A DNA stretch of 64,000 bases from Pelagibius sp. CAU 1746 (GTDB lineage Bacteria > Pseudomonadota > Alphaproteobacteria > Kiloniellales > Kiloniellaceae): NCBI RefSeq assembly GCF_039839785.1, contig NZ_JBDOQT010000002.1, forward strand, positions 496,001-560,000, in the 5' to 3' direction. Positions 9,462 to 13,837 of the stretch are shown here, in pieces (within the stretch, counting starts at the first letter, position 1; each line of letters starts with the position of its first letter). The notes beneath the pieces are model-generated. The model did no database searches. It was not told the DNA's origin and saw only the letters and a program-made list of their open reading frames with translations. Made by a program: the position numbers and the translations under genes.

Positions 9462-9632
9462 GCCACAAAGGTCCGCGCCTGCTTCGCGGAAGCTGTCTGG
9501 GCGCCCGCGGGCCGGGTTGCCGGACGGCTGCCGGGAGGTGGAGATCGGGCTGGGTTGCCGGGCGGAACGCTTGGTGGTTGGCGGCTGTCGTGAGAAGCTG
9601 CGATCGCAGGAAGCGAGCCCAATTTGGGTTAC

Positions 9633-10676
9633 ATGAAGCGTGAGGGGACCGTCTTGGCGCTAGCCGCCGAAATCGACAAACAGGCGAAAGGGTCGGCGAA
9701 GAGCGGCCTGGAGCCGCTAAGCGCCCTGGTGACGGACGATCTGCAGGCGGTGAACCGCCTGATCGTCGAGCATATGCAATCGCCGGTGGCCCTGATTCCG
9801 CAGCTCGCCAGCCACATCATCGCCGCCGGCGGCAAGCGGCTGCGCCCCATGCTGACCCTGGCCTCGGCCCGGCTCTGCGGCTACGAGGGCGAGCGCCATC
9901 TGGGCCTGGCCGCCTGCGTGGAGTTCATCCACACCGCCACGCTGCTGCACGACGATGTGGTCGACGCCAGCGACCTGCGCCGCGGGCTGGCTACGGCCAA
10001 CGCCGTCTGGGGCAACAAACCCAGCGTCCTGGTCGGCGATTTCCTGTTCAGCAGGGCCTTCCAGCTGATGGTGGCCGACGGTTCCCTGGACGTGCTGCGC
10101 ATCCTCTCCAACGCCTCGGCGGTGATCGCCGAGGGCGAAGTGCTGCAGTTGATGACCGCCAACGACACGACCTCCGACGAGGCCGCCTATATGCAGGTCA
10201 TCGAGGCCAAGACGGCCGCGCTTTTCGCGGCCGCCTGCCGGGTCGGCGCGGTGGTGGCGGAGCGGCCGGCGGCGGAGGAGGAAGCCTTGGAGCGCTTCGG
10301 CAGCTGCTTCGGCGTCGCCTTCCAACTGGTCGACGACATCCTGGACTACTCCGCCCTGCAAGGCGAGCTGGGCAAAGCCGTGGGAGACGACTTCCGCGAC
10401 GGCAAGATCACCCTGCCGGTTGTCCTCGCCTTCCAGCGGGCCGACGAAGCCGAGCGCGCCTTCTGGCGGCGCTGCCTGGAGGAGCAGGACCACCGGGACG
10501 GCGATCTGGAACAGGCCATCGAATACATGCAGCGCCATGACGCCCTGGCCGACGCCATGGGCCGGGCCCGCGACTACGGGGAAACGGCGCGCCGGGCCCT
10601 CGACGGCTTCGCCGACGGCCCGGCCAAGCAGGCCCTGCTGGATGTGGTGGAGTTCTGCGTCGACCGGGCCTATTGA
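9633..10676 (+). CDS. ispB: Polyprenyl (octaprenyl-type) diphosphate synthase
   Basis: About 347 residues. It condenses isopentenyl diphosphate units onto an allylic primer to make the ubiquinone side chain. The first aspartate-rich motif is LLHDDVVDAS near residue 107 and the second is QLVDDILDY near residue 235. GGKRLRPMLTLASA and GDFLFSRAFQLMV are also family signatures. The ATG at 9633 is used; a TTG at 9624 has a better placed AGGAAG and would add three residues. Chain length cannot be read with certainty; the small residues before the first motif agree with a long-chain (C40-C50) enzyme. The gene is preceded by its own promoter. Confidence 0.93.
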   Translation: MKREGTVLALAAEIDKQAKGSAKSGLEPLSALVTDDLQAVNRLIVEHMQSPVALIPQLASHIIAAGGKRLRPMLTLASARLCGYEGERHLGLAACVEFIHTATLLHDDVVDASDLRRGLATANAVWGNKPSVLVGDFLFSRAFQLMVADGSLDVLRILSNASAVIAEGEVLQLMTANDTTSDEAAYMQVIEAKTAALFAAACRVGAVVAERPAAEEEALERFGSCFGVAFQLVDDILDYSALQGELGKAVGDDFRDGKITLPVVLAFQRADEAERAFWRRCLEEQDHRDGDLEQAIEYMQRHDALADAMGRARDYGETARRALDGFADGPAKQALLDVVEFCVDRAY

Positions 10677-10719: not shown

Positions 10720-10989
10720 TCAGTGTTCCTCCTGCCCCAGGAGATCCTCCTCCAGGGCCTGACGCCACTCGCCCAGCCAGCTCAGCTCGTCGAGGAACAC
10801 CATCAGCTTCACGCAGAGCGCCACGGGATGCGGGATCCGGGATTTCCCGGAGGCCCAGCGGCGCACCGTACGGTCGTTCACTTTCAGTTCCCGGGATAGG
10901 GCCGTCTGCCAGCGCCCAGACCCGTAGAGGCGGGTGCAGAGCTCACGGAGCTGCTCGGCCGACATGCCGTCTTCGTCATCTGTCACCAT
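10720..10989 (-). CDS. Small helix-turn-helix DNA-binding regulator
   Basis: An 89-residue protein. MSAEQLRELCTRLYGSGRWQ leads into ALSRELKVNDRTVRRWASGK, a clear Xre/Cro-like helix-turn-helix with TVRRWASGKSRIP as the recognition region. The C-terminal LCVKLMVFLDELSWLGEWRQ could dimerise. The ATG at 10989 is chosen for its good GAGGGA ribosome site seven bases upstream; an in-frame start 72 bases earlier would run through the putative operator DNA. No toxin partner gene is adjacent, so this is more likely an orphan, autoregulated repressor than an antitoxin. Upstream lie four copies of a 13-base motif (11039-11166), which makes it the best candidate binder. Confidence 0.82.
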   Translation of the reverse strand: MVTDDEDGMSAEQLRELCTRLYGSGRWQTALSRELKVNDRTVRRWASGKSRIPHPVALCVKLMVFLDELSWLGEWRQALEEDLLGQEEH

Positions 10990-11038: not shown

Positions 11039-11166
11039 GGGCAAATTATCCAGTTCCGCAAGAGGAAACGGGCATTTTGTCCAAAACAACAAAGCCACGT
11101 TGGCTATTATGCCCTATTTATGCGTGCAGAATCGCATTTATGGAAGAGAAAGCGGGCATAATAGCC
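11039..11166. promoter_or_regulatory. Four copies of a 13-base operator-like motif GGGCAWWWTRKCC
   Basis: The copies are GGGCAAATTATCC (11039-11051), GGGCATTTTGTCC (11070-11082), the reverse complement of GGGCATAATAGCC (11102-11114) and GGGCATAATAGCC (11154-11166). Centres fall at 11045, 11076, 11108 and 11160, giving steps of 31, 32 and 52 bases, close to three, three and five helical turns. The ends GG...CC and the inner A...T are dyad-symmetric. The first copy contains GATAAT on the minus strand, a possible -10 of the HTH gene. The last two form a 13-base inverted repeat. Short TATTTATG and CATTTATG strings lie between them. Confidence 0.65.
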
Positions 11167-11227
11167 TATTTATGGCTTAATAGCGGCAGTATCTGTAAGT
11201 ATTTTTCCTTGGAAAGATCTTTTTTCA

Positions 11228-11256
11228 TTGACTCGGCTCCGCGGCGTATGTATATT
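11228..11256 (+). promoter_or_regulatory. Near-consensus sigma70 promoter for candidate small RNA
   Basis: TTGACT at 11228-11233 and TATATT at 11251-11256 with a 17-base spacer. This is the strongest promoter-like pair seen in the window, in an AT-rich stretch of an otherwise GC-rich sequence. Transcription would begin near 11263 and meet a terminator at 11371-11400. A longer transcript into the pentapeptide gene would need read-through. Confidence 0.7.
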
Positions 11257-11262
11257 CTAGTC

Positions 11263-11400
11263 ATCGTTCGGAAACAGAGACAAACCCATATCGCATTCCT
11301 GATCTAAGTACTCCGCATCGCATCTCTTGTCTCGTACTTGAAACCGACCGACATCGCATATTCAAGAATTGGGGGTCGATTTATTCGACCCCCTTTTTTT
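11263..11400 (+). ncRNA. Candidate intergenic small RNA, about 138 nt
   Basis: A near-consensus promoter ends at 11256 and a rho-independent terminator ends at 11400, with no convincing coding frame between them. The predicted transcript contains the heptamer AUCGCAU three times (11290-11296, 11317-11323, 11353-11359). The second copy lies in a loop closed by AAGUAC (11306-11311) with GUACUU (11334-11339). The third lies in a loop closed by CUUGAA (11337-11342) with UUCAAG (11361-11366). These two stems share bases and so compete. I cannot match it to a known family such as 6S, SRP or AbcR. Either a trans-acting RNA or a leader of the downstream pentapeptide gene is possible. Confidence 0.6.
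11371..11400 (+). terminator. Strong rho-independent terminator
   Basis: A nine-base perfect stem, GGGGGTCGA (11371-11379) with TCGACCCCC (11385-11393), a five-base loop and seven T residues (11394-11400). The T run exists only on the plus strand, so it ends plus-strand transcription before the pentapeptide gene. Confidence 0.9.
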
Positions 11401-11489
11401 GACCTGAAGGTGGAAACGGGGGCGCCTTCGACTGGAGATCGTTTCAACGCCCCGGCACTGCCGGGCGAAGACAGGTGAGGACATAGGTA

Positions 11490-11993
11490 ATGACCAACCT
11501 ATCTGAGAACGTGACCCGCGACCGTCCGCCGCAAAAGGTTCTGATCGGCGCACGGCTGACGCTGGAGAAGCTGCAACCGGTCCTGGAAGCCCATGCCCGC
11601 TACCGCGCCGGACGGGCCGATGGCCGCCGGACGGTGCTGCTGCGCTGCAATCTCAGGGGCCTGGACCTCTGCGGCATCGATTTGAGCGGCGCCGACCTGG
11701 TCGAGTGCGACTTCCAGGGGTGCAACCTGACGGGGGCCCGCTTCGAGGACGCGACGCTGACCGGTTCCAGCTTCGTCGACAGCCTGCTGAACGCGGCGCG
11801 CTTCACCGGCGCCGACCTGAGCCGTGCCGATTTCCATATGGCCGACCTGCGCGGCAGCGACCTCAGCGAGGCCAACCTGTCGGAGGCGCGCCTGGAAACG
11901 GCGGCCCTGGGCAGCAGCCCGGAATCGGGGCTGCCGACCACCATCGACACCCGGATTCTCGACCGCGTCATGGCCCGGCGCCGGCGCCACTAG
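11490..11993 (+). CDS. Pentapeptide-repeat protein
   Basis: A 167-residue protein. Residues about 50-140 consist of A(D/N)LXX-type pentapeptides such as LDLCGIDLSGADLVECDFQG and ADLSRADFHMADLRGSDLSE, which fold as a right-handed quadrilateral beta-helix. The N-terminal 45 residues are helical and charged (LTLEKLQPVLEAHARYRAG), and the C-terminus ends in a basic VMARRRRH. No signal peptide or membrane segment is seen, so it is probably cytosolic. Qnr-like proteins of this fold bind gyrase, but this one is short and has no clear relation to them; function unknown. It is the last chromosomal gene before the tRNA-Pro element. Confidence 0.88.
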   Translation: MTNLSENVTRDRPPQKVLIGARLTLEKLQPVLEAHARYRAGRADGRRTVLLRCNLRGLDLCGIDLSGADLVECDFQGCNLTGARFEDATLTGSSFVDSLLNAARFTGADLSRADFHMADLRGSDLSEANLSEARLETAALGSSPESGLPTTIDTRILDRVMARRRRH

Positions 11994-12198: not shown

Positions 12199-12243
12199 TG
12201 GTCGGGGAGAGAGGATTCGAACCTCCGGCCCCTACGTCCCGAA
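12199..12243 (-). repeat. Displaced copy of tRNA-Pro 3' end (att-like direct repeat)
   Basis: Identical to 13761-13805 over 45 bases; the match breaks at base 46 (G instead of C) and is lost shortly after. It covers the 3' end, acceptor 3' strand, T-arm and anticodon stem 3' side, but has no 5' half, so it is not a functional tRNA. It marks the left boundary of the element. Confidence 0.9.
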
Positions 12244-12250
12244 GGTAGGT

Positions 12251-12615: not shown

Positions 12616-13470
12616 ATGCAAGCTCAGGACGTTCTCTATCCAGAGCCCGTAATAATCAGATACGAGGGACTGGACGCGGAGCGGCACCAAGTGGACTTAG
12701 CGTTGTTGGGTCAATCCCTGCAAGGCGCGTCCAGGCTAATCGGCATCTCCGCGCACATCACGTTAACTGGCCAATATGTCAGGCGCTCGCCAGCCTTCTC
12801 CGTGCGTGTTCTGGCTGGTCAGCCAATCGACGGATGCTATCAGGTCCCGATCTACCTGGTCGGCGCTGTACCCCTTCTACCACTGCTAAGCTCGGCAGGC
12901 CGGGAGGCCGGAAAACGAGCGGTAGAAGCCACCGTGAACTTTATTCTGTCTAAGCTCGGCGGAAACGAGAGTGAGGCGGAGATGGCTATGGAAACGGCAC
13001 AACTTGCCATCCGATCCAACACTGATGTCACGCTCAAGGCAATGGAACTAGCGCAGTCGCTTGCTAAAGCAGGTGAGGATCAGCTACCAGCCGCTAGGCA
13101 GTACGCCGCACCAATTGGGACGTCTGCCAAGACCGCAACTATTGGAGAGCCCAACAAGGCTTTTGTTGTTGATGAGGATGTGCGCAAGCGGCTGGACGAG
13201 AAGCCTGATGAGGTCATTGGCCCGACACAGACCTTTACTGTCCAAGTTTCCGAGCTAGACGTTGTATCTGGCTCTTGCAAGGTAGCACTGGAGCTCGAAG
13301 GGCCAGATTCGCGGCTGGACTGCGACATCGCTGACCCCGTGGTGAGGAGCCCACATAGCCCCTACTCAGAGGCCCTGGACTCGCAGGATTGGATCAAGGT
13401 CGTGGCCAAGCCCCACATAAAGGACGGCGAAGTCGTGAAACTGACCATCTCAGATACTTTGAGCGAGTAG
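12616..13470 (+). CDS. Uncharacterised cargo protein of the tRNA-Pro element
   Basis: A 284-residue protein that I do not recognise with confidence; from memory it resembles an unnamed family (possibly DUF7946/7947). The N-terminal 80 residues look beta-rich: VIIRYEGLDAERHQVDLALL, then LGQSLQGASRLIG and HITLTGQYV. A hydrophobic VPIYLVGAVPLLPLLSS follows near residue 78. Residues 95-155 are helical, with many Ala and Glu. The C-terminal 90 residues again look beta-rich (TFTVQVSELDVVSGSCKVAL, WIKVVAKPHIKDGEVVKLTI). There is no signal peptide and no catalytic motif that I can name. A GGGGG run precedes the ATG. It is the only gene in the element, so it may be a selected cargo, for example a defence or fitness factor. 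Confidence 0.75.
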   Translation: MQAQDVLYPEPVIIRYEGLDAERHQVDLALLGQSLQGASRLIGISAHITLTGQYVRRSPAFSVRVLAGQPIDGCYQVPIYLVGAVPLLPLLSSAGREAGKRAVEATVNFILSKLGGNESEAEMAMETAQLAIRSNTDVTLKAMELAQSLAKAGEDQLPAARQYAAPIGTSAKTATIGEPNKAFVVDEDVRKRLDEKPDEVIGPTQTFTVQVSELDVVSGSCKVALELEGPDSRLDCDIADPVVRSPHSPYSEALDSQDWIKVVAKPHIKDGEVVKLTISDTLSE

Positions 13471-13760: not shown

Positions 13761-13837
13761 TGGTCGGGGAGAGAGGATTCGAACCTCCGGCCCCTACGTC
13801 CCGAACGTAGTGCTCTACCAGGCTGAGCTACTCCCCG
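13761..13837 (-). tRNA. tRNA-Pro, anticodon CGG
   Basis: The 77-base minus-strand sequence folds as a complete tRNA. The acceptor CGGGGAG pairs with CTCCCCG; the D-arm contains GCTCAGCCTGGTAGAGC; the anticodon stem CTACG/CGTAG encloses loop TTCGGGA, giving anticodon CGG for CCG codons; the T-arm is GGAGG-TTCGAAT-CCTCT; ACCA is encoded at the 3' end. Its 3' half is the integration target of the neighbouring element, which lies on its 3' side, and the duplication leaves the gene intact. Confidence 0.97.

Follow-up and report, generated by a model that had tools for sequence, protein, structure and literature searches.

A predicted small RNA of the genus Pelagibius: conserved loop motifs and a constant pentapeptide-repeat neighbour

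Does the intergenic interval in front of a pentapeptide-repeat gene in Pelagibius produce a functional RNA, and would such an RNA act on distant messengers, on the gene next to it, or on both? To our knowledge, small RNAs are little charted outside a few model alphaproteobacteria, and a limited look at the literature brought up none described from Pelagibius. The interval lies in a 64,000-nucleotide stretch of the genome of Pelagibius sp. CAU 1746, hereafter the window. Its neighbours are a gene for a polyprenyl synthetase (9624-10676) and a short one for an HTH-like protein on one side, and the pentapeptide-repeat gene on the other. The original prediction, made from the letters of the window, had proposed a non-coding RNA gene here, with a near-consensus promoter, a strong terminator, three AUCGCAU heptamers and two mutually exclusive stems. 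We compared the locus across genomes that are denoted by G-numbers, G000 being the window's own genome.

The predicted transcript is framed by two signals, both of which were found as proposed and are kept in all eight Pelagibius genomes (Table 1). The promoter TTGACT-N17-TATATT scored 10/12 and was the top of four promoter-like sites between 9000 and 14000, where shuffled sequences gave a mean of 1.2 sites (sd 1.1). TTGAC and the 17-base spacer are retained throughout the genus, the spacer sequence itself diverging, and the -10 element reads TATATT in five genomes, TATAGT in two and TATCCT in one. The terminator consists of a stem of nine pairs (11371-11393) followed by seven T, with a hairpin energy of -18.4 to -20.5 kcal/mol in the eight genomes and with 21 of its 33 alignment columns invariant. 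Judged from the promoter position only, the RNA would start near 11263. The RNA of the window is predicted to fold more stably than all of 200 shuffled sequences (z -2.86), and z ranges from -2.0 to -4.1 in the remaining seven genomes. A peptide-coding reading of 11263-11400 was rejected: no conserved reading frame was found across the eight transcripts, and the indels of 1 and 2 bases among the aligned RNAs, which are not divisible by 3, together with the absence of ATG from six of the eight transcripts, argue against a peptide.

Table 1. Features of the locus and of one candidate target gene (window coordinates unless another sequence is named)
Feature	Position	Strand	Basis
Gene for a small HTH-like protein (89 aa), divergent from the RNA	10720..10989	-	Homologue search
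Operator-like site 1, 11/13 against GGGCAWWWTGCCC	11039..11051	.	Same place in 8/8 genomes
Operator-like site 2, 12/13 against GGGCAWWWTGCCC	11070..11082	.	Same place within 3 bases in 8/8 genomes
Operator-like site 3, 11/13 against GGGCAWWWTGCCC	11102..11114	.	Same place within 3 bases in 8/8 genomes
Operator-like site 4, 11/13 against GGGCAWWWTGCCC	11154..11166	.	Same place in 8/8 genomes; weak (9/13) in G001
Sigma-70 type promoter, TTGACT-N17-TATATT	11228..11256	+	Motif scan and conservation, 8/8 in the genus
Predicted non-coding RNA, about 138 nt	11263..11400	+	BLAST, alignment, covariance model; start inferred
Predicted clamp helix, 5' arm GAGACAA	11277..11283	+	Flank permutation test; in the window's centroid fold, not in its minimum-energy fold
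Loop motif UCCUGAUCU	11297..11305	+	8/9 columns invariant across the eight genomes; G004 ends in C
Loop motif CGCAUCGCA, overlapping the middle heptamer	11314..11322	+	9/9 columns invariant in 8 genomes
Predicted clamp helix, 3' arm UUGUCUC	11327..11333	+	Flank permutation test
Motif GCAUAUUC before the terminator	11356..11363	+	6/8 columns invariant
Intrinsic terminator and T run	11371..11400	+	Kept in 8/8 genomes, one compensatory pair
Gene for a pentapeptide-repeat protein (167 aa), possibly transcribed by read-through	11490..11993	+	Pfam PF00805
Lipoprotein-like gene, candidate target	L155:1498-2100; own genome C2:705639-706238	- (L155)	Complement of UCCUGAUCU at the gene start

Which parts of the transcript does the genus preserve? 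AUCGCAU does occur three times within 70 nt of the RNA (starting at 11290, 11317 and 11353), as had been pointed out. The whole window holds nine copies of ATCGCAT against 8.65 expected, so that only their clustering stands out, and two more copies lie near the locus outside the transcript (11131 and 12052). The proposed role of the triple heptamer as a functional repeated motif did not survive the comparison, and we rejected it as a unit: exact copies number three in two of the eight genomes, two in one, one in four and none in one, and the first heptamer is present only in G000, G007 and G004. Across the eight-genome alignment, UCCUGAUC and CGCAUCGCA are invariant, and so is most of GCAUAUUC. 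The first loop motif takes the form UCCUGAUCY in the alignment, the RNA of G004 having C instead of the last U of UCCUGAUCU. Elsewhere, invariant columns are few, with 3/34 in the 5' flank, 0/8 between the two loop motifs and 5/33 in the 3' flank. Promoter, loop motifs and terminator are kept in all eight genomes and much else diverges, which bears out the proposal of a non-coding RNA gene. We consider it highly probable that the locus makes a transcribed, functional RNA.

The RNA element was found in all eight Pelagibius genomes, with no credible copy in the other 53 of the 61 genomes of the order. Among 98 related genomes, BLAST returned the interval from the eight Pelagibius genomes with E-values of 8e-112 to 6.9e-6, and matches outside the genus started at a chance-like E of 0.0285. 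A covariance model recovered the eight genomes with 116-134 bits, having been trained on these same eight sequences, and the next best match among the 61 genomes of the order reached 32.6 bits. The search of the order used strict filters, by which weak matches can be lost; it gave matches of 20-33 bits in eight non-Pelagibius genomes (G031, G015, G010, G026, G018, G021, G029 and G028). Six weak-match alignments from five non-Pelagibius genomes were inspected and consist mostly of the terminator, none containing both loop motifs. Those in G015 and G010 have short pieces in common with the RNA (UGAUCCAA and GCAUAUUC), and the genomic contexts of the two weak matches inspected in this respect, L059 and L060, differ from the Pelagibius locus. 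An order-wide pattern search yielded one extra match, in G030, with surroundings that look coding-like by eye. The same kind of search through 385 genomes of the class, a sample with no other Pelagibius genome, returned the own genome only. Plasmid and phage records held no match to the RNA, and none of 79 stretches of viral contigs that fit the pattern fitted the covariance model. As far as sequence comparison can tell, the RNA family is very likely restricted to the genus. The conservation partly reflects relatedness because the family is shallow, comprising one genus and eight genomes.

Of the structure proposed originally, the stems AAGUAC/GUACUU and CUUGAA/UUCAAG are both present in the window sequence but are not conserved across the genus. 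Standard pairs fill 45.8% and 66.0%, respectively, of their cells in the eight-genome alignment, and we rejected the two mutually exclusive stems as a conserved structure since 119 and 155 of 500 column shuffles reached the same pairing. Both stems beat slid versions of themselves, which is expected since they were read from one of the sequences.

Folding and permutation models suggest that the loop flanks likely co-vary as a clamp helix closing the motif loop. In this helix, the sequence 5' of UCCUGAUC would pair with the sequence 3' of CGCAUCGCA; the arms are GAGACAA/UUGUCUC in G000, GAGAGAUC/GAUCUCUC in G002, and GCACUGAAGA/UCUUCAGUGU in G005 and G001. The clamp is part of the minimum-energy fold in seven of the eight genomes, the exception being G000, where this fold contains the stem AAGUAC/GUACUU extended to 7 pairs. 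The centroid fold of G002 retains the terminator only. The summed pairing energy of each genome's own flanks was reached by 22 of 40320 partner permutations, a test that ignores relatedness, and ranks 2 of 120 in a version with five lineages. A foreign flank beats the own flank in four of the eight genomes: the flank of G006 gives -12.4 with its own partner and -19.5 with that of G002, and the flank of G000 gives -13.5 and, with that of G003, -17.5. RNAalifold recovered only the terminator from the plain eight-genome alignment because the position of the clamp arms changes from lineage to lineage, so that they fall into different columns. The folding models leave the loop motifs largely single-stranded, but G006 has the GAUC of its first motif in a helix, and in other genomes short pairs reach into the motifs.

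We favour, with moderate confidence, a joint reading in which the locus encodes a genus-specific small RNA that acts in trans with Hfq and is also the attenuated leader of the pentapeptide-repeat gene, expressed by read-through. From the sigma-70 promoter, transcription would run for about 138 nt to the strong intrinsic terminator and yield a non-coding RNA. The clamp helix might close a loop of about 40-50 nt and thereby display UCCUGAUC and CGCAUCGCA in a mostly unpaired state. RNAs bound by Hfq typically carry an A/U-rich stretch followed by a terminator with a U tail, and the Pelagibius RNA would have this Hfq-type layout 3' of its loop; the genome encodes an Hfq gene (PF17209, E 7.9e-32). 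The loop would most likely pair in trans with messenger RNAs, Hfq taking part. The pentapeptide-repeat gene would probably also be expressed, by polymerases that now and then pass the terminator, so that one RNA could serve as small RNA and as attenuated leader. The divergent HTH-like protein would probably sit on four phased sites, perhaps tuning the locus. The original prediction had named neither UCCUGAUC nor the likely clamp helix, the constant pentapeptide-repeat gene or the operator-like array that the RNA shares with the HTH-like gene.

Homologue searches matched the HTH-like gene in all eight Pelagibius genomes, the match in G004 crossing a stop codon, and in one of 15 other genomes of the family. 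The protein has no Pfam match; among phage families, its best matches are of unknown function and weaker ones are transcriptional regulators. The four operator-like sites begin about 189, 157, 126 and 74 bases 5' of the -35 element in all eight genomes. Successive sites are 31-33, 30-32 and 51-53 bases apart, close to 3, 3 and 5 turns of the helix, which is the phasing expected if a single protein occupied the whole array. Mono-shuffled regions contained a mean of 0.12 such sites, and the count is descriptive since the consensus GGGCAWWWTGCCC was drawn from the sites themselves. We infer that the HTH-like protein probably binds these sites, and as their predicted binder it may tune the locus.

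A candidate for trans action is a lipoprotein-like gene with the complement of UCCUGAUCU at its start. It encodes 200-207 aa and is present in all eight Pelagibius genomes; matches were also found in all 15 other genomes of the family, some of them weak and possibly paralogues, and the protein belongs to no Pfam or NCBIfam family. The complement is an exact 9-mer in five genomes and has one base changed in three, giving a G-U pair in G000 and the loss of one end in G005 and G001. Predicted duplex energies between the loop and the gene start range from -17.2 to -27.0 in the eight genomes, with -25.4 in G000, where the best of the window's 43 gene starts reaches -23.8. Upstream of an ATG, the complement of UCCUGAUCU was found at 57 places, four of which are the RNA's own complement. 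Of the other 53, all examined, a loose ORF filter retains 12, and five of the 12 are the lipoprotein-like gene; the filter had been loosened after a stricter version had dropped three of the five lipoprotein places. A permuted control seed gave 23 places, of which four pass (two of these being one place common to G005 and G001); a control-seed match identical in G002, G006 and G003 fails the filter. We claim no significance for the lipoprotein target because there was one control seed and seeds differ in frequency. With thousands of genes, such a match can arise by chance, and by its sequence the gene start is a weak candidate, a lead. A search with ATGCGATGCG gave 61 places in the eight genomes, six of them the RNA's own complement. 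The remaining 55 were examined: five places are common to two genomes and none to three, and one shared place (L047 and L191, in G000 and G007, the closest pair) precedes a gene start by 33-34 nt. As a separate observation, the exact complement AGATCAGGA occurs at two more likely gene starts, those of a LysR-like regulator (L128, G002) and of a 200-aa protein (L339, G006).

The 167-aa pentapeptide-repeat gene lies on the same strand, 34-89 nt past the T run, in all eight Pelagibius genomes. The homologues in the other seven genomes are 54-89% identical to the protein of the window, that of G007 being the one at 89%; Pfam was run on three of the eight proteins. In all eight genomes, an intrinsic terminator stands between the promoter and a downstream gene on the same strand, as in 5' UTR-derived small RNAs. 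A scan for sigma-70-like promoters found no site above 8/12 between the terminator and the gene in any of the eight. The pentapeptide-repeat gene, having no recognisable promoter of its own, may therefore rely on read-through from the promoter at 11228, the RNA possibly being its attenuated leader. Beyond this gene, the two copies of a 50-base direct repeat (98%), at 12199-12248 and 13761-13810, correspond to the 3' part of a tRNA-Pro gene (minus strand, 13761-13837). They enclose about 1.5 kb, including a gene for a DUF7946/DUF7947 protein (12616-13470), and the segment 12199-13810 has the appearance of a small element that integrated at the tRNA-Pro gene.

Could the RNA be a purely cis-acting leader, an attenuator or ligand-sensing element whose loop binds a protein or ligand and lets the polymerase pass the terminator? 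The same-strand gene downstream in every genome, without a recognisable promoter, would fit such an element. So would G011, a genome of another genus (87% complete with 8% contamination), which brings together an HTH-like gene related to that of Pelagibius, two sites of the operator-like kind and a pentapeptide-repeat gene of greater length (at least 335 aa). A long stretch separates the two genes of G011, and the RNA covariance model finds no match in this genome. However, we found no antiterminator pairing with the 5' arm of the terminator, the arm that was tested: in each of the eight genomes, between 88 and 288 of 300 shuffles paired equally well, and the place of the best pairing is common only to G000, G007 and G004. 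Regulated read-through is thus left without a visible mechanism. The terminator is also strong in all eight genomes, and two mostly exposed invariant strands resemble pairing seeds. We regard an exclusively cis-acting element as unlikely.

Alternatively, the RNA might be a stand-alone small RNA gene, with the pentapeptide-repeat gene as an unrelated neighbour under a promoter that escaped recognition. The RNA has a strong promoter and terminator of its own, and the scan was blind to promoters of other sigma factors. Against this, the gap of 34-50 nt in four of the eight genomes leaves scant room for a second promoter, and the order of HTH-like gene, RNA and pentapeptide-repeat gene is constant in all eight, which makes an independent RNA gene rather improbable in our view.

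The joint reading of small RNA and leader could be extended to a three-part switch. The HTH-like protein and four operators would set the promoter, the transcript would mostly be terminated and sometimes read through, and the RNA would pair with the start of the lipoprotein-like gene near a two-component regulator, perhaps co-transcribed, linking the two loci. In G000, a response-regulator gene with Response_reg and Trans_reg_C domains lies, on the same strand, directly 3' of the lipoprotein-like gene. Next comes a frame that matches no family and may encode the sensor for this regulator. We consider the complete switch a long shot.

That no functional RNA is made, and that the interval is conserved only as DNA for a promoter, operators and a terminator of the neighbours, would suit the shallowness of the family; it is very improbable, since the invariant motifs lie inside the interval from promoter to terminator, where a predicted loop with pairing flanks would carry them. 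Type III toxin-antitoxin loci (ToxIN and its kin) are described as an ordered promoter, repeat-bearing RNA, intrinsic terminator and ORF (PMC5086642). The Pelagibius locus resembles them in this order, but it lacks genus-wide tandem repeats, the three heptamers being confined to two genomes, as well as a ToxN-like protein, no endoribonuclease family being among the Pfam and NCBIfam matches of the pentapeptide-repeat protein, so that an RNA antitoxin paired with this protein as toxin is hardly credible.

Present throughout the genus, with two loop motifs that hardly vary and a constant partner gene, the RNA provides a directly testable case of a leader that possibly doubles as a trans-acting RNA; apart from this question, the finding is of an ordinary kind. 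The original prediction had matched the RNA to no known family, in agreement with Rfam, where tRNA alone exceeded the gathering threshold in the window. Five sub-threshold matches fell within 11190-11500, the best with E 0.38. The sole bacterial small RNA among the five, RF00519 (suhB / MmgR), is likewise a small alphaproteobacterial RNA, but its match (E 0.38) reached 16.8 bits where the gathering score is 41, and covers the 3' half with the terminator.

Among characterised RNAs, RusT of Caulobacter crescentus is an Hfq-bound small RNA for which targets and Hfq binding were measured (PMC11005374). It is alphaproteobacterial and uses a conserved exposed stretch for target pairing, in which the predicted Pelagibius RNA would resemble it (PMC11005374). 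A pentapeptide-repeat protein is just one among the genes listed there as deregulated by RusT (PMC11005374). As an analogy, UpsM is the closest working model for the Pelagibius RNA. This 5' UTR-derived small RNA of the dcw cluster in Rhodobacteraceae has been proposed to be both leader and trans-acting RNA, and read-through and Hfq-dependent cleavage were shown for it (PMC5089854). By that account, UpsM and the Pelagibius RNA are alike in being alphaproteobacterial, in having an own promoter and an intrinsic terminator inside a long leader (268 nt in UpsM and about 227 nt in Pelagibius, if the start is at 11263), and in occurring in one group only (PMC5089854). The downstream gene is described as having no promoter of its own for UpsM, and has no recognisable sigma-70-like one in Pelagibius (PMC5089854). 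It is mraZ in the former and the pentapeptide-repeat gene in the latter, and the two systems are likened by layout, not by sequence (PMC5089854).
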